Shown piece after piece: positions 42,667 to 53,622 of a stretch of 64,000 nt of DNA. Below the pieces are notes generated by a model, which did no database searches, had not been told where the DNA came from, and saw only the letters and a program-made list of their open reading frames with translations. A program made the position numbers and the translations under genes. Numbering within the stretch: position 1 is the first letter of the stretch; each line of letters opens with the position of its first letter. This DNA is from Streptacidiphilus albus JL83 (GTDB lineage Bacteria; Actinomycetota; Actinomycetes; Streptomycetales; Streptomycetaceae): assembly GCF_000744705.1 (NCBI RefSeq), contig NZ_JQML01000001.1, positions 5,094,017 to 5,158,016 of the forward strand. Reading direction: 5' to 3'.

Positions 42667-43923
42667 GTGGCGATGGTGGAACAGCTCACTCGGCAGCTCA
42701 ACCTGCGCACGGTCATGGACCTGTTCGTGGCGGTGGGCCGGATCAGCAGAGCCGAGCTCGCCCGGCGCACCGGCCTCTCCAAGCAGACCGTCTCGGAGCT
42801 GGTCGGCGAGTTGGAGGAGGGCGGCTGGATCCGCTACACCGGCGACAGCGTGTCCTCCGGCGCCAGCGGACGCGCCGCCGCCCTCTACGAGCTGGACCCG
42901 AGCGCCGGCGCCATCGTCGGGGTCGACCTCGGCGGCACCAAGATCAACGCTGCCCTCGGCGACTTCAGCGGCGCCGTGCTGCGCGAGGCGACCGCCCCCA
43001 CCGACCCGCGCGGCGGCCGGTACGTCATCGCCCAGATCGTCGGCCTGGCCCGCGAGCTCGTCGCCGCCGAGGGCGTCGACCCGGCCCGGCTGCGGGTGCT
43101 CGCGCTCGGCAGCCCCGGCGCCCTGGACCGTGACACCGGCGTGATGGCCTTCGCCCCCAACATCCCCTCCTTCGGCGACCTGGACGTGGCCCGGGAGATC
43201 GCCGCCGAGCTCGGCACCGTCGTCGTCGTCGACAACGACGTCAATATCGCGGCCCTGGGCGAGCACTGGGCCGGGCACGGCCGGGGGCAGTCGGAGTTCG
43301 TCTTCATCGCCGTCGGCACCGGCATCGGGATGGGCCTGATCACCGGCGGGGTGCTGCGCACCGGCGCCACCGGCGCGGCCGGGGAGATCGCCTACCTGCC
43401 GCTCGGCACCGACCCCTTCGACCCGGCCAACCAGGTCAAGGGCCCGCTGGAGGAGGCCGTGGCCGGCGAGGGACTGGCCCGCCGCTACGCGGGCGGACCG
43501 GCCGGCCGGGGCAGCGTGCCGGAGATCTTCGCCGCCGCCGCGGCCGGGGAGCCGGCCGCGCTGGCCGCACTGGACGAGGAGGCCCGGCTGATCGCGCTGT
43601 CGATCTGCGCGGTCGCGGCCGTGCTCGATCCCGCGCTGGCCGTCATCGGCGGCGGCATCGGCTCCCGCCCGGAGCTGCTGGAGCCGGTCCGCGCCTGGCT
43701 GGCCCGGCTGATGCCGCGTCCGGTGCCGGTGCGGACCAGCGAGCTCGGCCCGCGGGCCGGCCTGCTCGGCGCCGTCGCCGTCGGCCTGCGGACCGCACAC
43801 CAGAGGCTGTTCCAGGCGCCGGGCCAGTCCACCGCCGCCGACCGGGGACCGGTCCCGGTCCCCGCCCCCGCACTCGACCGGGTCGTCACCGCCGCACCGG
43901 TGCCGGTCCCGGTCGGGGGCTGA
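42667..43923 (+). CDS. ROK-family transcriptional regulator
   Basis: 418 residues from GTG 42667 (ATG 42673 possible). N-terminal winged helix (ISRAELARRTGLSKQTVSELVGELEE) then a ROK sugar-kinase fold: VGVDLGGTKINAALGDF (phosphate 1), DNDVNIAALGEHWAGHG, FIAVGTGIGMGLITGG and GATGAAGEIAYLPLG. The CxCGxxGC zinc motif of glucokinase-type ROK proteins is missing in the expected place, so sugar-binding repressor rather than kinase is likely. The last ~45 residues are Pro/Val-rich. No sugar operon is adjacent; the DUF2079 gene lies upstream on the same strand. Confidence 0.88.
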   Translation: MAMVEQLTRQLNLRTVMDLFVAVGRISRAELARRTGLSKQTVSELVGELEEGGWIRYTGDSVSSGASGRAAALYELDPSAGAIVGVDLGGTKINAALGDFSGAVLREATAPTDPRGGRYVIAQIVGLARELVAAEGVDPARLRVLALGSPGALDRDTGVMAFAPNIPSFGDLDVAREIAAELGTVVVVDNDVNIAALGEHWAGHGRGQSEFVFIAVGTGIGMGLITGGVLRTGATGAAGEIAYLPLGTDPFDPANQVKGPLEEAVAGEGLARRYAGGPAGRGSVPEIFAAAAAGEPAALAALDEEARLIALSICAVAAVLDPALAVIGGGIGSRPELLEPVRAWLARLMPRPVPVRTSELGPRAGLLGAVAVGLRTAHQRLFQAPGQSTAADRGPVPVPAPALDRVVTAAPVPVPVGG

Positions 43924-43942
43924 CCCCAGGTCGGCCCCGACC

Positions 43943-43987
43943 GGAGCAGGGGGCGCCGCCGAGTACTTCGGCGGCGCCCCCTGCTCC
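43943..43987. terminator. Strong bidirectional terminator, ROK gene / beta-helix gene
   Basis: GGAGCAGGGGGCGCCGCCGA and TCGGCGGCGCCCCCTGCTCC are perfect 20-bp arms around five bases, between two convergent stop codons. Confidence 0.8.
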
Positions 43988-44020
43988 GTTCCGTACGTCG
44001 TTCAGTACCGGTTCGGCTCC

Positions 44021-46003
44021 TCAGTGCGCGGTCTCCAGCGTCCGGTCGTCCATCTTCGGGCGGATCTCCACGGCGGGCTTCGACGGCAGCGGCTGCTGGT
44101 TCTGGTACGGGTGGCGGCCGACGAAGGAGGTCCGCCTGCCCTGGGCCTTCAGCCTGCGGCGGGCGCCCCGGCCCTTCAGCCCGGCCAGTGCGATCAGCAG
44201 GAAGACGCCGAGCCAGATCAGCGTCATCGGCCGGGCCATCCGCTTGACCCGGGTCAGCATCGGGGTGGTGTTGTGCCAGGCGGCGGTGGAGTTGTGGCCG
44301 ACCACCACCGTGCCCTCGGCCCTGGAGGCCGAGACCGGGCTCGGGCCCGAACCGGTGAGGGTGTTGTCCGCGACCCGCGTCCCGCCGACCGTGCCGACCA
44401 GGGTGATGCCGTGCTCCTGGGCGCCCTTCACGGTGTTCCCGGAGATCCCGGCACTGGAGTCGCGCAGGTAGATGCCGGTCACCGCGCCCTGCACGGTGTT
44501 GCCGGTGACCACCGCGCCGGTGTCGCCGTCGCGCACCGATATGCCCTCGCGCTGCTGCGCGGTGAGGGTGTTGTCGACGACCGAGACGTGCGCGGCGCTG
44601 CGCCGGACCACGATGCCCATGGTGTTGCCGACCACGGAGTTGTGGTCGAGGTCGACGTTCTGCCCGCCGAGCACCTCGATGCCGTAGTGGCCGTTGTCCT
44701 GGGTGCTGCTGTGGGTGACGGTGTTGTTGCCGTAGGCGCCGACCGGCTCGCCGGAGGCCGAGGGGCCGGCGGACAGCGCCTGCCCGTTGATGGTGAAGCC
44801 GTTGCCGGAGTTGTCCATCGCGGTCGAGTTGCTGATCTCGACGTCCTGGGCGGCCCGGGCGATGTCGAAGCCGTCGCCGTGGTTGCTGTTGGAGCTGTCG
44901 TCGCTGAGCACCGCGTTGGTGGCGAAGCGGTGCAGCACGATGCCGGCGATCAGACTGCCGGTGACCTGGGTGCCACTGATCTCGATGCCCTGGGCGCTGG
45001 AGATGAAGATGCCGTAGGCGTTGCCCTGGATCACCGAGTCGGAGATCTTGGCCGAGACGTAGGACAGGCCGCTGACGTCGTACTGGTTGCCGGTGCCGTT
45101 CAGGGCGCCGGTCGGCAGGCTGGCCACGCCGTTGGCGCCGAGGTTGCCGCTGGGCTGGGCGATGGTGGTGCTGTCGCCCGAGGTCGCGGTCGTCTCCTTC
45201 TTGTGCGCCTGGTTGGCCTTGCCGTGCAGGTGGCTCGCGTGCACATGGACATAGGTCGAACTGCCGGTCGCGGCGCCGGTGGTGGGGCGGTCGCTGCCGG
45301 TGAGGCTGATCCCGCCGGTGCGCCCGCTCCAGAAGCCGAGGTCGTAGACGTCCACATGGCTCATGCTGAAGTGCCCGCCGATGGCCCGGATGTAGGCACG
45401 GCCGTCGCTCGGGTCGGTGTCCGGCGCGTTGTTCTGGGTGTCCCAGCTGGTGACCGTCATCGGGTGCTTGGCGGTGCCGGACAGGTTGATGGTGCCGTCG
45501 AAGGAGACGATGGTGACGAAGCCGGTCGGTGTGCTCGCCATCCGCAGCACCAGGCCGCCGGGGGTGTTCAGGTTCAGCGTCGCGCCCATGCCGACGTAGA
45601 CGTTCTCCAGCAGCAGGTAGGAGCCGTCGGTCAGCCGGAGGAAGGTCTGCGGGGCCAGCTGCAGCAGGTCGGCGACGGTGTACGGGGCGGACCGCTGCGG
45701 CAGCACCAGGGTGTAGCCGGAACCGGTGGCCAGCCGGTACGGGGTGTTGCCCTGGGTGGCGTGGAGGGTGGCGTTGGCGCTGACCGCGCGGACCTCCAGC
45801 AGCCGGTGGTCCTCGGCGGCCACGTCGGCGGCCTCGCGGGCGGCGGTGGCGGAGTCCACGGTCGGGGCCGGGGCGACCGGGCCGCCGGGCGCGGCGGCCT
45901 GCGCGGTGGCCGGTGCGAGCAGGCCGGCGCCCAGCAGCGTCAGCAGGGCGAGCGCGGGGGCCCCGACCCGGCTGCGGGTCCGGGCGGGACGGGGGGACGT
46001 CAT
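44021..46003 (-). CDS. Secreted right-handed beta-helix protein with C-terminal membrane anchor
   Basis: 660 residues from ATG 46003. Signal peptide (LALLTLLGAGLLAPATAQA), a ~170-residue leading region, then a long parallel beta-helix (residues ~290-560) with typical turns: GNAYGIFISSAQGIEISGT, VVGNTMGIVVRRSAAHVSVV, GNTVQGAVTGIYLRDS, GNTVKGAQEHGITLVG. Near the end a membrane helix (MTLIWLGVFLLIALAGL) and a basic cytoplasmic tail. This architecture resembles NosD-like and mannuronan C5-epimerase-like (AlgG) folds. Overlaps the synthase gene stop by ATGA, so they act on one polymer. Confidence 0.85.
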   Translation of the reverse strand: MTSPRPARTRSRVGAPALALLTLLGAGLLAPATAQAAAPGGPVAPAPTVDSATAAREAADVAAEDHRLLEVRAVSANATLHATQGNTPYRLATGSGYTLVLPQRSAPYTVADLLQLAPQTFLRLTDGSYLLLENVYVGMGATLNLNTPGGLVLRMASTPTGFVTIVSFDGTINLSGTAKHPMTVTSWDTQNNAPDTDPSDGRAYIRAIGGHFSMSHVDVYDLGFWSGRTGGISLTGSDRPTTGAATGSSTYVHVHASHLHGKANQAHKKETTATSGDSTTIAQPSGNLGANGVASLPTGALNGTGNQYDVSGLSYVSAKISDSVIQGNAYGIFISSAQGIEISGTQVTGSLIAGIVLHRFATNAVLSDDSSNSNHGDGFDIARAAQDVEISNSTAMDNSGNGFTINGQALSAGPSASGEPVGAYGNNTVTHSSTQDNGHYGIEVLGGQNVDLDHNSVVGNTMGIVVRRSAAHVSVVDNTLTAQQREGISVRDGDTGAVVTGNTVQGAVTGIYLRDSSAGISGNTVKGAQEHGITLVGTVGGTRVADNTLTGSGPSPVSASRAEGTVVVGHNSTAAWHNTTPMLTRVKRMARPMTLIWLGVFLLIALAGLKGRGARRRLKAQGRRTSFVGRHPYQNQQPLPSKPAVEIRPKMDDRTLETAH

Positions 46004-47268
46004 CGGGCAGCCTCCGGGGAAAGGGTCGCCGCACTCTGGCCCGCGCCGCCGATCTGGTCCGAACTGCGGGTCAGCCAGCCCTGCTTGTTCATGGTGAAGA
46101 AGGCGTACATCTTGATCGGGAGCGAGATCATGATCACGGTCAGCGCGGTGAGCGGCAGCAGCAGGATCTCCCAGGGGTGGCGGCGCAGGTGCGAGTACCC
46201 GCGGACGCCGCGGCCTATCAGCAGCCAGGCGGCGGCCAGCAGGTAGCCGCGCGGGGTGTAGTCCAGCCGGTCGAAGAGGAGGAAACCGATGGTCAGGCCC
46301 ATGGTGATCGGGGTGATCAGGATCTGCAGCACGGTGATCCGGGAGATCAGCGGGGTGCGCCAGAGCCAGCCCTTCCAGATGGCCGTCAGGTAGCAGCGGT
46401 AGGAGTTGCGGCTCCAGCGCACCCGCTGCTTGACGAAGGCCGAGAAGGAGTCCGGGAACATGGAGATGGCACGGGCGTTGGACTGGTGCACGGTCTTGTA
46501 GCCGGCCGCGAGGGTCAGCCAGGTCATCCGTCCGTCGTCGCCGGCGATGCAGCGACGGCCGAGGAAGAACTCGTCCTCCAGGTTCTTCACGGTCGGCAGG
46601 ATCACCGAGCGCCGGTACGCGGCGGTGCGTCCGGACAGGCAGATCACGCCGCCCTTGCGGCTCATCGCCGGGACGTAGTCGTAGTACCGCAGGTTGACCA
46701 GCCAGTCGGCGATCCGCCGCCAGACGCTGGTGGTCCGCTGGTACACGTTCTGCTGCGTGCCCACGCCGCCGACCTGCGGGTCCACGAAGGGCATCTGCAC
46801 GGCGTCGAGGAGGCCGGGCTCCCATGCGGTGTCCGAGTCGGCGAAGACCAGGATCTCGTTCCGGGCCGCGCGGATTCCCACGCCCAGCGCCGAGCGCTTG
46901 CCGGTGTGGTCGAAGACCAGCACCCGCAGCCGGGCGTCGCTGACGGCGGCGAGCCGGCGCTGCGCCTCGACGTCGGCGGTGTCGATCACGATGATGACCT
47001 CGCCCGGGTCCTGGGCGAGCCAGGTCCACAGGCAGCGCATCAGGATCTCCGGGTCCTCCCGGTAGGAGGGGACGACGACCGAGGTGGTGGTGCGGAAGTC
47101 GTTCACCACCGGATGCGCGAAGCGGGAGACCACCGCCCGGTAGAGCCAGAGCAGCCAGACCAGGACGCCGGCCATGCCGAGCGGCACCACCTGGCGCCAG
47201 TCGTCGCCGGCCACCAACTGGTTCAGGAAACTCGATACGTCATGGAGCGGGCCAGACAAACCGGACAT
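46000..47268 (-). CDS. Processive family 2 glycosyltransferase (hyaluronan/alginate synthase-like)
   Basis: 422 residues from the ATG at 47268 (AGGA upstream); an ATG at 47286 is the alternative. Membrane helix (MAGVLVWLLWLYRAVV), then GT-A domain: TTSVVVPSYREDPEILMRC, VIIVIDTADV, ILVFADSDTAWEPG (DxD), LEDEFFLGRR, and QRVRWSRNSYRC, the Q/RxxRW motif of processive beta-glycan synthases. Three or more C-terminal helices follow (LQILITPITMGLTIGFLLF, LTALTVIMISLPIKMYAFF). The beta-helix partner resembles alginate-type epimerases. Product polymer unknown. Confidence 0.9.
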   Translation of the reverse strand: MSGLSGPLHDVSSFLNQLVAGDDWRQVVPLGMAGVLVWLLWLYRAVVSRFAHPVVNDFRTTTSVVVPSYREDPEILMRCLWTWLAQDPGEVIIVIDTADVEAQRRLAAVSDARLRVLVFDHTGKRSALGVGIRAARNEILVFADSDTAWEPGLLDAVQMPFVDPQVGGVGTQQNVYQRTTSVWRRIADWLVNLRYYDYVPAMSRKGGVICLSGRTAAYRRSVILPTVKNLEDEFFLGRRCIAGDDGRMTWLTLAAGYKTVHQSNARAISMFPDSFSAFVKQRVRWSRNSYRCYLTAIWKGWLWRTPLISRITVLQILITPITMGLTIGFLLFDRLDYTPRGYLLAAAWLLIGRGVRGYSHLRRHPWEILLLPLTALTVIMISLPIKMYAFFTMNKQGWLTRSSDQIGGAGQSAATLSPEAAR

Positions 47269-47520
47269 GGGGATCCTAGGGGTCATGCTGAAGCAGGCGT
47301 GGCTCAAGAGCACAGAGTGATGGGGGTGCCGGACCGCACGTGCGGCAACGGGGTGATCCTAGTGATGCACTACATCCCCAGAAGCTGGCTGAGCCAGTTG
47401 TTTACCTGATGGCATCAAACTGTTGATCGAACTGTCTGATATGTCGGAGTCTCAATGGCCTTGGTAAGAAGGTCATGCAGTGGAGTAAGTGTGAAGGCCC
47501 AGTGAAACGCGCTGGTCCTG

Positions 47521-48117
47521 GTGTACGCATGGAACGTGCGCTTTGACGCGGTTCCGATGCCGCCCACCGTTCAGGACCGCCCCCGGGACGCCCGGGGCTA
47601 CCCCGTGCCGGCCATCACCCCGTGGGTGGAGGAGCAGCCGCAGTTCGCCCTCACCGACTACGGGCGCAGCGCCGCCTGCGCCCGGGAGCGGCTGTGCTCG
47701 GTCTGCGGGCGGCTCATGGCCAGGGGCAGCGTCTGGCGGGTGGTGGGCGCGGCGGAGTGCGCCGCGATCGGCGAGGCGCTGGCCGCAGGGCGGCCCTACC
47801 GCAACCTGGCTCCCACGCTGGAGGGCCCGGGCCACCGGGCGTGCATGCTCTACGCCTCGATGGTCTGCCCCTACCTGGCCCGCCCCAACGCCCGGCGCGG
47901 CACCTCGGCCGGTCGGCCGGACGAGCTGACCGCGCACGTCGTCCGGGGCGCGGTCCGGGGGACGATGGGCGCGGTGGTCGGCTTCGCCGACTACGAGTTC
48001 GCGGTGACCGCCACCCAGGTGCTGTTCCGCTTCGTCGACGTGGTGGAGTTCCTGCCGCACGACACCGCCGACGCCCACGCCGAGGAGCTGCGGGCCGAGT
48101 TGGCTCAGGACCGGTAG
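47521..48117 (+). CDS. Hypothetical protein with CxxC motif
   Basis: 198 residues from GTG 47521 (start uncertain; GTG 47536 and ATG 47557 also in frame). PPTVQDRPRDARGYPVPAITP opens, then CARERLCSVCGRLMARG, a likely metal site (CSVCGR plus a nearby Cys), GHRACMLYASMVCPYLAR with more Cys, and a conserved VVGFADYEFAVTA. No domain I can name. It overlaps the convergent lipoprotein gene by 13 bp. Confidence 0.6.
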   Translation: MYAWNVRFDAVPMPPTVQDRPRDARGYPVPAITPWVEEQPQFALTDYGRSAACARERLCSVCGRLMARGSVWRVVGAAECAAIGEALAAGRPYRNLAPTLEGPGHRACMLYASMVCPYLARPNARRGTSAGRPDELTAHVVRGAVRGTMGAVVGFADYEFAVTATQVLFRFVDVVEFLPHDTADAHAEELRAELAQDR

Positions 48118-49118
48118 GCCGGCAGCCCGACGTGGCCGGAGACCTGCACCGCCGCGCCGCCGCCGACCGCGACGGTGTCGATGCCGGCCGGGGTGCGGAA
48201 GGCGATGGTGCTGCCGTCCGGGGACCAGGTCGGCTCGGTGTCGTCGGCGGTCGCGTCCGGGGTCAGGTCCCGCGCCGTCCGGGCGTAGGCGGTCTCCTCG
48301 AAGATGTGGTCGTGCCCGTCCACCGAGCGGACGAAGACGACGTCCTGGCCGTCCGGCGAGAGCGCCGGCTCGGAGCCCTGCGCCAGGGCGCCGCCCATCT
48401 GCCGCAGGTAGTCGTCGCGGATGTAGACCTCGCCGGTGCCCGTGTTCTCGTACACGGTGGTCCCGGTGGCGGCGGTCCCGCCCCCGTTCGGCCAGGTGTT
48501 GCCGGTCTGCGGCAGCGGCTGGACGTTCTGTCCGGCGCCGGCGTTCAACGGCAGGACGGTCGGCGTGCCGTCGACGGCGGTCGCGGACACCCGCTCCAGC
48601 CGGGTGCTGCCGTTGACCGCGGCGGCGAAGAAGAGGTTGTCCTTCGGGACGATCCCCTCCGGGTCGCCCTCGGTGACCTGCCAGGCCGGGTGGGACCAGA
48701 CCTGGTCGCCGGGGTTCCTGGCGACGACGGTCCGCCCGCTGCCGTCGGGGTTGCTGACGACCAGGTCGCCGGCGCCGTCGATGAAGGCGGCCTTGGCGCC
48801 GCCCGGGCTCCAGGCGAGGTCGCGGACGACGGCGCCGAAGTCGACGGTGGTCCCGTCCATCACCACCGTCCCGGTCCCGTTGCTGATGGTCAGCCCGTTG
48901 CCCGCGGTGCCGTTGAGCGTGGTGCCGTTGCCCGTGCTGCCCGGCGCGGGGGACTTCACGGGCGCCGCGGCGGAACCGGACGCGCGGCCGGACGCGCTGC
49001 CCGACGGGGAGCCGGGGTCGGGGTCGCAACCGGTCAGCAGCAGGGCGGTGCCTGCGGTGAGGGCGGCGGCGAGGGTGATGGCGGCGGCGGTTCTGGAGCG
49101 ACGGTCGCGAACGGACAT
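48105..49118 (-). CDS. Lipoprotein with TolB/WD40-like beta-propeller
   Basis: 337 residues from ATG 49118, GGGAG 8 bases upstream. Lipobox LLLTGCDPDP, Ser/Gly-rich linker, then propeller blades: VRDLAWSPGGAKAAFIDGAGDL, EPALSPDGQDVVFVRSVDG, TEPTWSPDGSTIAFRTPAG, the SPDG turns being typical of PD40/TolB-like repeats. Outer membrane-side surface protein; ligand or partner unknown. Confidence 0.85.
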   Translation of the reverse strand: MSVRDRRSRTAAAITLAAALTAGTALLLTGCDPDPGSPSGSASGRASGSAAAPVKSPAPGSTGNGTTLNGTAGNGLTISNGTGTVVMDGTTVDFGAVVRDLAWSPGGAKAAFIDGAGDLVVSNPDGSGRTVVARNPGDQVWSHPAWQVTEGDPEGIVPKDNLFFAAAVNGSTRLERVSATAVDGTPTVLPLNAGAGQNVQPLPQTGNTWPNGGGTAATGTTVYENTGTGEVYIRDDYLRQMGGALAQGSEPALSPDGQDVVFVRSVDGHDHIFEETAYARTARDLTPDATADDTEPTWSPDGSTIAFRTPAGIDTVAVGGGAAVQVSGHVGLPAYRS

Positions 49119-49305
49119 CTCGGACTCTCCCACGGCGGGTGACGGGTGCTCGGCGGGCGTCGGCCGGAGTCCCCGCGCTGCGACGGCTCGACTGCCCCGC
49201 GGTTCCGGCGTGCTGAGTGAAGCGTGGCAGCGCCGGATGCCGAAGCCGTGCGCACCCGGTCACAGTCCTGCAACAGAGCGTGGCCGAAGGGTGGTTGGCG
49301 ACGGC

Positions 49306-49625: not shown

Positions 49626-50774
49626 CTACTCGATCTCGATCGGGCCCTGGCCGACCACGCGCCGCCCGTGCTCCTTCTCCGCCGAACGGGCCTGCGGGGA
49701 ACCGAGGTTCTGCCGGACCGAGTCCAGGATGGTCAGCCCCTGGCCGACCAGCCCGGCGGCGATCTCGCCCAGTCCGTCGGCGCCGTTGAGGACGTTGACA
49801 TTGGCGCCGGCCAGTCCGGCCGCCGCCTCCTTGACGATCTGCGGCAGCTGGTCGATCAGCATCCGGTCCAGCGCCACCCGGTCGTAGGACGCGGCGGCCT
49901 CGGCCTGGACCTTCATCCGGTTGGCCTCGGCCGTGGCCAGCACCCGGATCCGCTCGGCCTCCGCCTCGGCCGGCTTCACGATCTCGGCCACCAGCTGCTG
50001 CTGCCGCAGCTCGGCGGCCCGCTGGGCCAGCTCGGTCTGGGCGATCAGCACCTCCTGGGTGGCGTGGGCCTGGGCCAGCGGACCGGCCTGGGCGGCCTGC
50101 GCCTGGGCCCGGTCGACCTCCGCCGAGTACTCGGCCCGGACCACGGCGGTCTGCCGGGCGTACTCCGCCTGGTTCCGCTCGGCCTCCTGCTGCGCCTGGA
50201 CCGAGGCCTGGGTGGCCTGGGCCTGGGCGATCTGGGCCTGCCGCTGGATCGCGGCCTTGTGCGGGGCGGCCATGGCGGCGATGTAGCCGGTCTGGCCGTC
50301 GTCGATGGACTGGATCTGCAGCGAGTCGACCGTCAGCCCGATCGTCGCCATCTCGGCCTTCGAGGTCTCCAGGACCTCGGTGGCCAGCTTCTGCCGCTCG
50401 GTGACGATCTCCTCGACCGTCATCGAGCCGATGATGGAGCGCAGATGGCCGGCGAAGATCCGGCCGGTCAGGATCGACATCTGGTCCTGGTCGGAGAGGA
50501 ACCGCTGACCGGCGTTGACGATGCTCTCGGTGTCGTTGCCGACCTTGAACGCGATCACCGCGCGCACCGTCAGCGCGATCCCCTGCTTGGTCACACAGGT
50601 CTCGTCGACCTCGGCCTCGCACATGGCCAGCGTCAGGAACCGGGTCTTGCGGAAGACCGGCAGGACGAACGCGCCATGGCCGGTCACCACCCGGAACGGC
50701 GCGGTCCCCATCCCGCGCTTGCCCCCGGAGATCAGCATGGCCTCGTCAGGGGCAGGAACTCGGTAACCGAACAT
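49626..50774 (-). CDS. Flotillin/SPFH (band 7) protein
   Basis: 382 residues, start ATG 50774 (MFGYRVPAPDEAMLISGGK). SPFH domain to about residue 200 (AEVDETCVTKQGIALTVRA, GRIFAGHLRSIIGSMTVEEI, LGLTVDSLQIQSI-type strand), then a long Ala/Gln/Glu-rich coiled coil (AQIAQAQATQASVQAQQEAE, AEAEAERIRVLATAEA) and a C-terminal flotillin tail (QLPQIVKEAAAGLAGA). Oligomerises on membranes into microdomains. No membrane helix is obvious, so attachment is peripheral or via the partner gene upstream. Confidence 0.92.
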   Translation of the reverse strand: MFGYRVPAPDEAMLISGGKRGMGTAPFRVVTGHGAFVLPVFRKTRFLTLAMCEAEVDETCVTKQGIALTVRAVIAFKVGNDTESIVNAGQRFLSDQDQMSILTGRIFAGHLRSIIGSMTVEEIVTERQKLATEVLETSKAEMATIGLTVDSLQIQSIDDGQTGYIAAMAAPHKAAIQRQAQIAQAQATQASVQAQQEAERNQAEYARQTAVVRAEYSAEVDRAQAQAAQAGPLAQAHATQEVLIAQTELAQRAAELRQQQLVAEIVKPAEAEAERIRVLATAEANRMKVQAEAAASYDRVALDRMLIDQLPQIVKEAAAGLAGANVNVLNGADGLGEIAAGLVGQGLTILDSVRQNLGSPQARSAEKEHGRRVVGQGPIEIE

Positions 50775-50785
50775 CCTTCTTCTCC

Positions 50786-51037
50786 TCAACCTGCGTTGTC
50801 CGGCTCCCCGGACAACGCTTCCAACGGATCGGCCCACTCGATGACCTCGACCTGGCGTGAGCCCCGGGAGTTGATCACGAGCACGGGCGCCCCCTTCGGC
50901 AGGGGCTCTTCGGACCAGGCGAGGAAGGTCTCCGTACCACCTCTGACCCGCACCAGAGCCTCTCCCGGACCCGCACTACCACGCGTGCCGAGCAGCAGCA
51001 CTCCGGTACAACCGATCACGGCTTCGTCCGATGCCAT
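50786..51037 (-). CDS. NfeD-like OB-fold protein (soluble)
   Basis: 83 residues, ATG 51037. VIGCTGVLLLGTRGSAGPGEALVRV then TFLAWSEEPLPKGAPVLVINSRG and a C-terminal VEVIEW make the small OB barrel of NfeD C-terminal domains, which partner flotillins. The protease and membrane parts of full NfeD proteins are absent. Only 11 bp upstream of the flotillin start, so co-transcribed and probably co-functioning. Confidence 0.75.
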   Translation of the reverse strand: MASDEAVIGCTGVLLLGTRGSAGPGEALVRVRGGTETFLAWSEEPLPKGAPVLVINSRGSRQVEVIEWADPLEALSGEPDNAG

Positions 51038-51975: not shown

Positions 51976-53352
51976 TCAGCGCGAGTGCGCCGCCAGCGCC
52001 TTCACGAAGAGCGTGGCGTTGATGGTGCCCCAGCCGGTGGCCAGGTCGTAGCCGTGGCCGGCCGAGTAGCCCTTGACGCCCTGGAAGCTGTTGTTGCCGG
52101 TGGTGATGTCGACGATGCCGTCGGCGGCCGGCCGGCTCTCGCCCATGGCGTACAGCTCGGGGTTGATCAGGCCGAGGCGGTGGCCCGCCTTCTGGTCGGC
52201 GAGGGCGACGATGCCGGAGAAGATCGGCGTCGCCTCACTGGTGCCGCCGACGATCCCCCAGCCCTGGCCGGGCAGGTAGGACGAGTAGACCCAGGCGCCG
52301 CCGTTGACCGCGGCGCTCATGCTGATGTCCGGGGTGCCGCGGTGGTTGCCGACGACCTTGGCGACGCCGTTCTGGTACGAGGGACGGCCGAACACGGCGG
52401 ACAGGCCGCCGCCGCCGGCGCCGTAGCCGTCGTTCCAGGTGGTGTCGGGCGCGGTGCGGGCGCCGGCGTTGTTCAGCGTCAGCTGGGAGCCGCCGACCGA
52501 GGTCACCAGCGGGTCCGAGGACGGCCAGGAGTTGGCCGGGTCCTTGTAGAGGCCGCCGCTGTTGTTGTCGCTCGCGGCGCCCTCGTCGCCGGCCGCACCG
52601 AGCACGGTGACGTTGTGCCGGGCGGCGTCGGTGAAGGCGTAGCGGAGGTCGGTCAGCGAGGGCGTGCCCTTCTTCCCGAAGCCGGGGAAGGTGTTCTCGG
52701 TCGCGCCGAAGCTCTGCGAGATGACGTCGCCGACACCGTGGTTGATCAGGTACGTCTCGGCGTCCATCATCTGCGGCAGGCCGCTGGTGCCCTCGTTCTC
52801 GTTCACCGCGGTCTCGACCAGCACGATCCGCGCGCCGGGGGCGACGGCGTGGGCGTACTCGACGTCCAGGGTGGTCTCGCCGGCCCAGCCGGTCTGGTTG
52901 GTGTCCTTCGGGTTCCAGGCGGGGACCTTCCCCCACTTGACCACGTTCACGGTGGTGTTCGGCAGGCCCCAGGCCTTGTCGAAGACACTGAGGTCGTGCT
53001 GGATGGTCGGCGAGCCGTAGGAGTCCACGATCACGATGGTCCGGCCCTTGCCGGTGATCCCGGCGCGGTACAGCGGGTTGAGGTTGTAGGCGTCCCGGTA
53101 CTGCAGCGGCGAGTAGCAGCGGACCTTGAACTTCGCCAGGCAGGCGGTGGTGGAGATCGGCGAGGTCGCGCCGGATATCAGGGTGTGGCCGGCCACGGCC
53201 GGCACGACCTGGACGGACGGCGTCGCGGTCGGCGCGGCGCCCGCGACGGCACCGAAGGGTGCGGCACCCGAGAACGCCGCCACGGCCGCAGCAGAGGCCG
53301 TGAGGGCGGCGGCGGTCCTGGCGGTGCGAGCACGAACGGTGGAGCGGTCCAT
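51976..53352 (-). CDS. Secreted S53 (sedolisin) serine-carboxyl peptidase
   Basis: 458 residues from ATG 53352 with GAGGAG four bases upstream. Signal peptide (AAALTASAAAVAAFSGAA) and no long pro-domain are seen. Catalytic set: Glu159 and Asp163 in AGETTLDVEYAHAV, oxyanion Asp in LGAAGDEGAA and Ser372 in GGTSEATPIFSG; the calcium-site end is GYDLATGWGTIN. Acid-active endopeptidase expected to be exported. Most family members carry an N-terminal inhibitory pro-domain of ~180 residues, which is short here (~60 residues before the catalytic part). Its upstream region holds GTGAT-A-ATCAC. Confidence 0.92.
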   Translation of the reverse strand: MDRSTVRARTARTAAALTASAAAVAAFSGAAPFGAVAGAAPTATPSVQVVPAVAGHTLISGATSPISTTACLAKFKVRCYSPLQYRDAYNLNPLYRAGITGKGRTIVIVDSYGSPTIQHDLSVFDKAWGLPNTTVNVVKWGKVPAWNPKDTNQTGWAGETTLDVEYAHAVAPGARIVLVETAVNENEGTSGLPQMMDAETYLINHGVGDVISQSFGATENTFPGFGKKGTPSLTDLRYAFTDAARHNVTVLGAAGDEGAASDNNSGGLYKDPANSWPSSDPLVTSVGGSQLTLNNAGARTAPDTTWNDGYGAGGGGLSAVFGRPSYQNGVAKVVGNHRGTPDISMSAAVNGGAWVYSSYLPGQGWGIVGGTSEATPIFSGIVALADQKAGHRLGLINPELYAMGESRPAADGIVDITTGNNSFQGVKGYSAGHGYDLATGWGTINATLFVKALAAHSR

Positions 53353-53470
53353 GGATCTCCTCAGGCAGTGGGCAGTGGGCGGCGTCCTGCGGGTGCGCGG
53401 GCGGCCCCGTCGGAGCGCGTCGGAGCGCGACGGAACCCGTCGGGGCGCGGCAGGAGCGCCCCCGACCGAA

Positions 53471-53481
53471 GTGATAATCAC
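53471..53481. promoter_or_regulatory. Palindrome upstream of the S53 peptidase
   Basis: GTGAT-A-ATCAC, perfect 5-1-5, 119 bp before the start codon. Weak evidence for a regulator site. Confidence 0.3.
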
Positions 53482-53622
53482 CCACCGCATCCCCGCTGTG
53501 ACACCCCCGATCGGGGGGACCTGGCAGCCGACCGGCGACTTGCCACTGCCGGACCACCCAACATCAGGCGTCATGTCTGGTATTGACGGTATGTCAGTGA
53601 CAGGAGAGCAGTCCGGTCCGGT

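Follow-up and report, generated by a model that had tools for sequence, protein, structure and literature searches.

A gene pair of Streptacidiphilus albus encoding a hyaluronan-synthase-like GT2 and an AlgG-like beta-helix protein, a probable polyuronate synthase system of alginate-like logic

In the alginate system of Pseudomonas and Azotobacter (Alg8, AlgG, AlgL, AlgD), a processive family-2 glycosyltransferase (GT2) is combined with an extracytoplasmic beta-helix epimerase, a lyase and a GDP-mannose dehydrogenase, while class I hyaluronan synthases (HAS) are GT2 enzymes that use UDP-glucuronic acid (UDP-GlcA). Part of the nomenclature and roles of the alginate genes is set out in PMC4444821, in which the His of the DPHD motif is put forward as the base of AlgG, with an Arg against the carboxylate charge and Tyr314 holding a water molecule, and AlgL is proposed to clear stray alginate. 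A 2020 survey (PMC7112194) places most alginate operons in Pseudomonas and, among the operons then known, counts only that of poly-N-acetylglucosamine (PNAG) as genetically and structurally characterised in Gram-positive bacteria; Pel in Gram-positive bacteria and cellulose in clostridia were described in the same period or later (PMC7112168, PMC7710045). Here we describe a two-gene locus in a stretch of 64,000 nucleotides from Streptacidiphilus albus JL83 (contig NZ_JQML01000001.1, positions 5,094,017 to 5,158,016; "the window" below), in which a hyaluronan-synthase-like GT2 is coupled to an AlgG-like beta-helix protein. We think it likely that this locus is a polyuronate synthase system, probably fed with UDP-glucuronate and following an alginate-like logic, and regard it as a new variant of the synthase-dependent exopolysaccharide systems; no description of such a locus appears among the open-access titles and abstract openings listed, nor is one mentioned in the portion of the 2020 survey consulted. 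The pair and its immediate surroundings are as follows.

46000-47268, minus strand: processive GT2 (the synthase), hyaluronan-synthase-like, 422 amino acids (Pfam PF13641, fold, motifs)
44021-46003, minus strand: right-handed beta-helix protein of AlgG-like fold, apparently secreted and with a C-terminal anchor, 660 amino acids (Pfam, model)
46000-46003, minus strand: ATGA overlap of the GT2 stop and the beta-helix start (sequence)
43942-43988: perfect 21-bp hairpin directly 3' of the beta-helix gene, terminator-like, without a T run (RNA fold)

The synthase frame is read from the ATG at 47268, with an alternative in-frame GTG start at 47313. A start codon stands exactly at -4, that is, in a four-base overlap with the GT2 stop, in all seven loci of the family set (the window and six relatives) and in 13 of 26 additional class loci, where the start codon nearest -4 was taken and the second beta-helix copies of L099, L100 and L102 were left out. 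Because the -4 start recurs across loci the overlap is not chance, and judged from the sequence it is a case of translational coupling of the two genes. Since the hairpin lies 3' of the beta-helix stop codon, the two-gene unit probably ends there; the surrounding region 43924-44020 folds at -65.4 kcal/mol (z -6.2), a value equalled by none of 200 shuffles.

The synthase matches Pfam Glyco_tranf_2_3 (PF13641) at 4.4e-30 and carries (as P0001) the motifs DSD at 144-146, GDD at 243-245 and QRVRW at 281-285, the last within a string, KQR(V/I/M)RWSRN, that is present in all 35 clade-A members. Its AlphaFold model (mean pLDDT 82.9) has helices at 307-334, 339-356 and 365-391, and all the hallmarks of a processive GT2 (DxD, GDD or TED, QxxRW and C-terminal transmembrane helices) are found in it. 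The initial annotation had proposed both a processive GT2 and its overlap with the next gene by ATGA, and both proposals are borne out. Among PDB sequences the enzyme matches the hyaluronan synthase 8smm (7.8e-17), and the 13 top Foldseek rows for its model are all hyaluronan synthases (9yq4, 8smn and others; E from 9e-23), with TM-scores of 0.70-0.80 by query length and identities of 17-22%. A cellulose-type or PNAG-type assignment was also considered and dropped, the equivalog scores being far below cut-off.

The two genes travel together. The window's beta-helix protein (P0002), used as bait, finds matches in 7 of 200 family genomes, and the beta-helix P0006 does so in 28 of 394 genomes of the class, 26 of these being new, which gives 33 distinct loci with the beta-helix (7 from the family and 26 from the class). 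GT2 adjoins the beta-helix in all 33, so that the co-occurrence in relatives which had been preset as a test of the pairing is observed throughout; the GT2 matches of the 26 class loci are at 57-75% identity, and a relative from the same genus (G054) is 93% identical to the window in GT2 and 76% in the beta-helix. Searching with GT2 instead leads back to the same genomes: in the 200 family genomes 26 match at 1e-40, of which seven, the same as those found with the beta-helix, reach at least 71% identity; the remaining 19 lie at 39% or less and were not counted as the same gene. In the 394 class genomes 30 match, 28 of them being the beta-helix genomes; of the extra loci, L124 has a diverged beta-helix (25%) plus a lyase, and in L123 the contig ends 179 bases behind GT2. 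In the GT2 tree 35 rows, including L123 and L124, lie on one side of a single branch (support 92/93), with L028 and two other GT2 locus types outside it. Beyond the class, unfused loci were found in L125 (GT2, beta-helix and lyase) and L126 (these and a 45% UDP-glucose 6-dehydrogenase). A plasmid search with the window's GT2 gave no match at 1e-60, and a contig collection searched with P0002 gave one weak match from Phycisphaerae. In three genomes of family f17 (L099, L100, L102) GT2 and lyase are separated by two tandem beta-helix genes.

Among relatives, the pair usually sits in a larger locus that also holds a lyase and a UDP-glucose 6-dehydrogenase (UGD)-like gene, which leaves the earlier idea of a self-contained two-gene system unsupported. 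Neighbourhoods were read over about 11-19 kb, and a gene described as missing is missing in that stretch; the Pfam, NCBIfam and PDB tests of neighbours were made on representatives, the others being assigned by tblastn or blastp similarity. A lyase of the type of PsAly, an alginate lyase of Paenibacillus, occurs in 31 of the 33 loci (all except the window and L101), a UGD-like gene at 60% identity or more in 25 (the matches of L097 and L121 are in two pieces and were counted as present, whether or not the gene is intact), and a PL14-like gene in 13, all of family f18. The dehydrogenase of L022 matches UDP-glucose dehydrogenase 4a7p at 7.6e-100, as against 5.7e-53 for GDP-mannose dehydrogenase. 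The third gene of the full locus belongs to the same family as PsAly, which we take to be PL31, and matches its structure 6kfn at 1.2e-48; the relatives' lyases differ from PsAly in lying in a biosynthetic-looking locus and in having, by eye, an N-terminal hydrophobic segment. In the PsAly paper (PMC6796002) the proposed acid is Tyr184 and the proposed base Lys221, and uncharacterised homologues in Streptomyces are already mentioned there. Of the PsAly active site, the two catalytic residues together with the first-site cation ligands (E181, Y184, E216, D219 and K221) are conserved in 34 of 34 lyase copies, and all nine positions checked (Lys128 lies outside this check) are kept in the 34 copies except for D250, which is N in two.

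The window copy is, judging by its gene content, a stripped version of this larger locus. L101 has likewise only GT2 and the beta-helix, and the G054 locus keeps the lyase with no UGD shown. Elsewhere the window genome holds five genes for nucleotide-sugar dehydrogenases that score above the family cut-off and, 1.9 Mb away, a single PsAly-type gene (45% identity, the same nine residues):

L071:9426-10319, about 7.015 Mb: PsAly-type lyase gene of the window genome, nine checked active-site residues present

The neighbourhood of this distant gene looks unrelated by eye, and its product could serve the window system in trans or be catabolic. One might accordingly ask whether the pair is a degenerate, non-functional remnant on its way out, having lost lyase and dehydrogenase, as would be allowed by the whole window being free of matches to PsAly-type lyase and UGD at 1e-3, and by the locus of G054, with a lyase and no UGD. 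We regard this as very improbable, given that both frames are intact, that GT2 and the beta-helix are 93% and 76% identical to those of G054, that the GT2 motifs are present, that the dehydrogenases and a lyase with all nine checked residues exist elsewhere in the genome, and that L101 shows the same reduced arrangement.

These gene contents also bear on the nature of the polymer. HAS is the best structural match of the synthase, and a UGD-like gene lies beside GT2 in 25 of the 33 loci; the differences are the beta-helix partner in 33 of 33 loci, the neighbours of alginate-lyase type and the 17-22% identity. The initial annotation had noted that hyaluronan-type partners are absent nearby, which is true of the window, whereas the GT2 fold is nearest to hyaluronan synthase and the UGD-like neighbour is common among relatives. 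GT2 could make a hyaluronan-like alternating GlcNAc-GlcA chain or another heteropolymer, with the beta-helix as its C5-epimerase or lyase, a view favoured by the hyaluronan synthase folds, by the frequency of UGD-like genes, and by the best NCBIfam match of GT2, which is NodC, a UDP-GlcNAc enzyme, far below its cut-off. The linked lyases speak against a heteropolymer, belonging to PL14 and to the PsAly alginate lyase family (6kfn), both known for homopolyuronates (hyaluronan and heparin lyases were not searched for), and we consider it unlikely.

The beta-helix protein gives a Pfam Beta_helix match at 3.9e-21, together with NosD-type repeats, and a simple hydropathy scan places hydrophobic segments at 13-31 and 593-611, from which it is apparently secreted and anchored in the membrane at its C-terminus. 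No match to PDB sequences was found at 0.1. Its model has a mean pLDDT of 70.4, the helix core being mostly above 80 and residues 238-313 and both ends low, and the closest structure to it is AlgG (4ozz/4nk6; Z 35.0 over 350-352 residues at 2.4-2.6 A), followed by AlgE6 and AlgE4 at Z 32 and the alginate epimerase/lyase 8ja4 at Z 30. In these model comparisons the margin of AlgG over other beta-helices is clear, though all share the fold, and in a single hhalign comparison a 36-member family alignment matches three AlgG-like proteins at E 1.1e-18 with probability 99. The AlgG fold supports an anchored beta-helix of the epimerase or lyase kind, as first proposed, and epimerase-like exopolysaccharide synthesis is also supported. 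For the sugar-binding groove, the other preset test, the likeness to the AlgG/AlgE fold is indirect evidence only. A NosD function was dropped: Pfam NosD (PF05048), presumably a general beta-helix repeat model, is above its cut-off, yet TIGR04247 (NosD copper-binding) scores 29.2 bits where 300 are needed.

Two residues of the predicted active site can be placed on those of AlgG:

44930-44932, minus strand: codon of H358, which falls at the catalytic His of the AlgG DPHD motif (alignment, with hhalign in the same register)
44855-44857, minus strand: codon of R383, at the position of the Arg that neutralises the carboxylate in AlgG (sequence alignment only)

In the alignment of 36 members (the seven family proteins and 29 from the 26 class loci, L124, L125 and L126 being left out), His is kept at the first position in 32 and Arg at the second in 34, with His replaced in L113, L114, L119 and L121 and Arg in L111 and L113. 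The Tyr, Asp, Pro and second Asp of AlgG are not kept at the aligned place, for which reason we do not give the protein the name AlgG; a DPH string does occur in two of the 36 rows (L110, L117), in the C-terminal tail and not at the aligned place. From these residues, the beta-helix may act in an AlgG-like manner with a changed active site, or may be an inactive guide.

Related loci bear on this choice. In G588, from the same phylum and another class, a single open frame of 814 codons (L127:7320-9764) encodes, in order, a hydrophobic N-terminal segment, an AlgG-like beta-helix (AlgG 4nk6 at 2.4e-17, with YGIDPHT...HGIILADR kept), a further hydrophobic stretch and a GT2 that shares 46% identity with the window's, and a UGD-like gene adjoins the frame; the TGA in the fusion alignment is the gene's own stop. 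The joining of the two in one polypeptide is an argument for synthase and beta-helix working on a common chain, and is compatible with a beta-helix located outside. Searches of 27 genomes of its order and of 396 genomes of the phylum recovered the fusion from a single genome, identical in both, and it may be a rare arrangement or an assembly effect; as read from its sequence, the protein is a candidate one-polypeptide synthase-epimerase. Two other locus types in the same family have related GT2 proteins (36-39% identical to the window's), mostly next to UGD-type genes, while their outer enzymes differ and they form separate tree groups. In the second type (L025-L027) a short UGD, a GT2 (38-39% to that of the window), an anchored beta-helix and a PL14 lyase occur together, the L025 lyase being the only PL14 copy tested by Pfam; the anchored beta-helix was recognised by eye in L025 and also by weak matches in L026 and L027 (1e-10, 4e-8). 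L025 and L026 also hold a separate AlgG-like protein with DPHD, whereas L027 yielded none; that of L025 (P0009) scores 88 bits against NCBIfam NF038177, below the 700-bit cut-off. L133, from another lineage outside the class, has a GT2 63% identical to that of L025, a beta-helix, a weak PsAly-type match, PL14 and a short UGD. In the third type (L029-L031) a GT2 36-38% identical to the window's is found with GH26-like genes (two or more in L030 and L031, one in L029), and in L029 and L031 also beside UGD.

A second explanation accepts the uronate polymer and takes the anchored beta-helix to be catalytically dead, a scaffold or guide keeping the chain outside the membrane, with epimerisation performed by another protein or by none. 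The lack of DPHD and Tyr at the aligned position throughout the 36 members, the replacements of His and Arg in the loci named above, and the separate DPHD protein near the anchored beta-helix of second-type loci all favour it; the retention of His in 32 and Arg in 34 of 36 members, and the DPH of the GT2-linked beta-helix in the fusion, do not. We find this explanation credible, if somewhat short of probable.

The pair resembles the alginate system in joining a processive GT2 to an extracytoplasmic beta-helix of AlgG fold and, in relatives, in clustering these genes with those of a lyase and a nucleotide-sugar 6-dehydrogenase. It differs in that the dehydrogenase is of the UDP-glucose and not the GDP-mannose type, that PsAly-type and PL14-like lyases take the place of AlgL, and that the beta-helix is membrane-anchored. 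Because of this difference in dehydrogenase class, the missing DPHD and the lack of lyase and dehydrogenase at the window locus, we do not class the pair as an alginate system. Gene content, gene linkage, families, predicted folds and active-site residues are what we observe; the donor sugar, the sugar linkage, the identity of the polymer, epimerase activity and the role of the lyase are what we infer. In the polyuronate scheme that we prefer, GT2 would polymerise a nucleotide-activated uronic acid, most likely UDP-GlcA, and extrude the chain via its own membrane channel, as in hyaluronan synthase. The beta-helix protein, co-translated with GT2 and held outside by its C-terminal helix anchor, would take the chain into its groove and act on it as AlgG does on mannuronan, by C5-epimerisation, or would at least guide and protect it. 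In the full loci of relatives, UDP-glucose 6-dehydrogenase would make the precursor, and the PsAly-type lyase, with a PL14-like enzyme in one family, would trim or clear misplaced polymer, as AlgL does. The product would be polyglucuronate, possibly partly epimerised, and the window genome would keep only the core at this locus, with dehydrogenases and one PsAly-type lyase gene elsewhere.

Several observations weigh against this scheme. The donor specificity of GT2 is not readable from sequence, and with NodC as best NCBIfam match UDP-GlcNAc is possible as sole or second donor. PsAly-type lyase, PL14 and UGD queries against the whole window gave no match at 1e-3, and eight of the 33 loci (the window, L019, L101, L103, L104, L111, L113 and L114, the last with a 29% match) have no UGD-like gene reaching 60% identity within the region read. 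Occurrence is patchy, at 7 of 200 family genomes. For the beta-helix, P0002 gave no match at E 0.01 to the NCBIfam AlgG model NF038177 (equivalog cut-off 700 bits), many other beta-helices, including NosD and phage tailspikes, reach Z 24-29, and where AlgG has YGxDPHD the window protein reads AGIVLHR, of which only the His aligns, in repeats whose register can slip by one coil. Finally, a DPHD protein near a separate anchored beta-helix in L025 and L026 means that the epimerase may be some protein other than the anchored one.

A bolder form of the polyuronate reading is that Actinobacteria own an alginate-like pathway, in which polyglucuronate made by a hyaluronan-synthase-like GT2 would be C5-epimerised to iduronate at the surface by a coupled, sometimes fused, beta-helix of AlgG fold whose active site is rearranged, retaining His and Arg and none of the other DPHD residues, PsAly-type and PL14 lyases acting as housekeepers. 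We put this forward tentatively, as a possibility that falls below an even chance.

Functional ties to the adjoining genes, encoding a hypothetical protein (47521-48117), a PD40 protein (48105-49133) and a ROK protein (42667-43923), were set aside; among the six family neighbourhoods compared, relatives of these neighbours were found in L019 alone. Nearby are a flotillin-like gene (49626-50837) and, in the same stretch, a gene for a peptidase with an S8-type domain (51976-53574, 532 amino acids; Pfam Peptidase_S8 2e-11). At 1e-40 the flotillin-like gene has just two plasmid matches, from Streptomyces (89%) and Mycobacterium (66%), which, with a G+C content of 72%, points to an actinobacterium.

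Few synthase-dependent exopolysaccharides have been characterised in Gram-positive bacteria. If our interpretation is correct, a conserved polyuronate locus would point to an as yet unassigned surface polymer of actinobacteria and would supply enzymes of bacterial origin for materials of the glucuronan or iduronan type. The combination of synthase, epimerase and lyase known from alginate would then also exist in cells that have no outer membrane.

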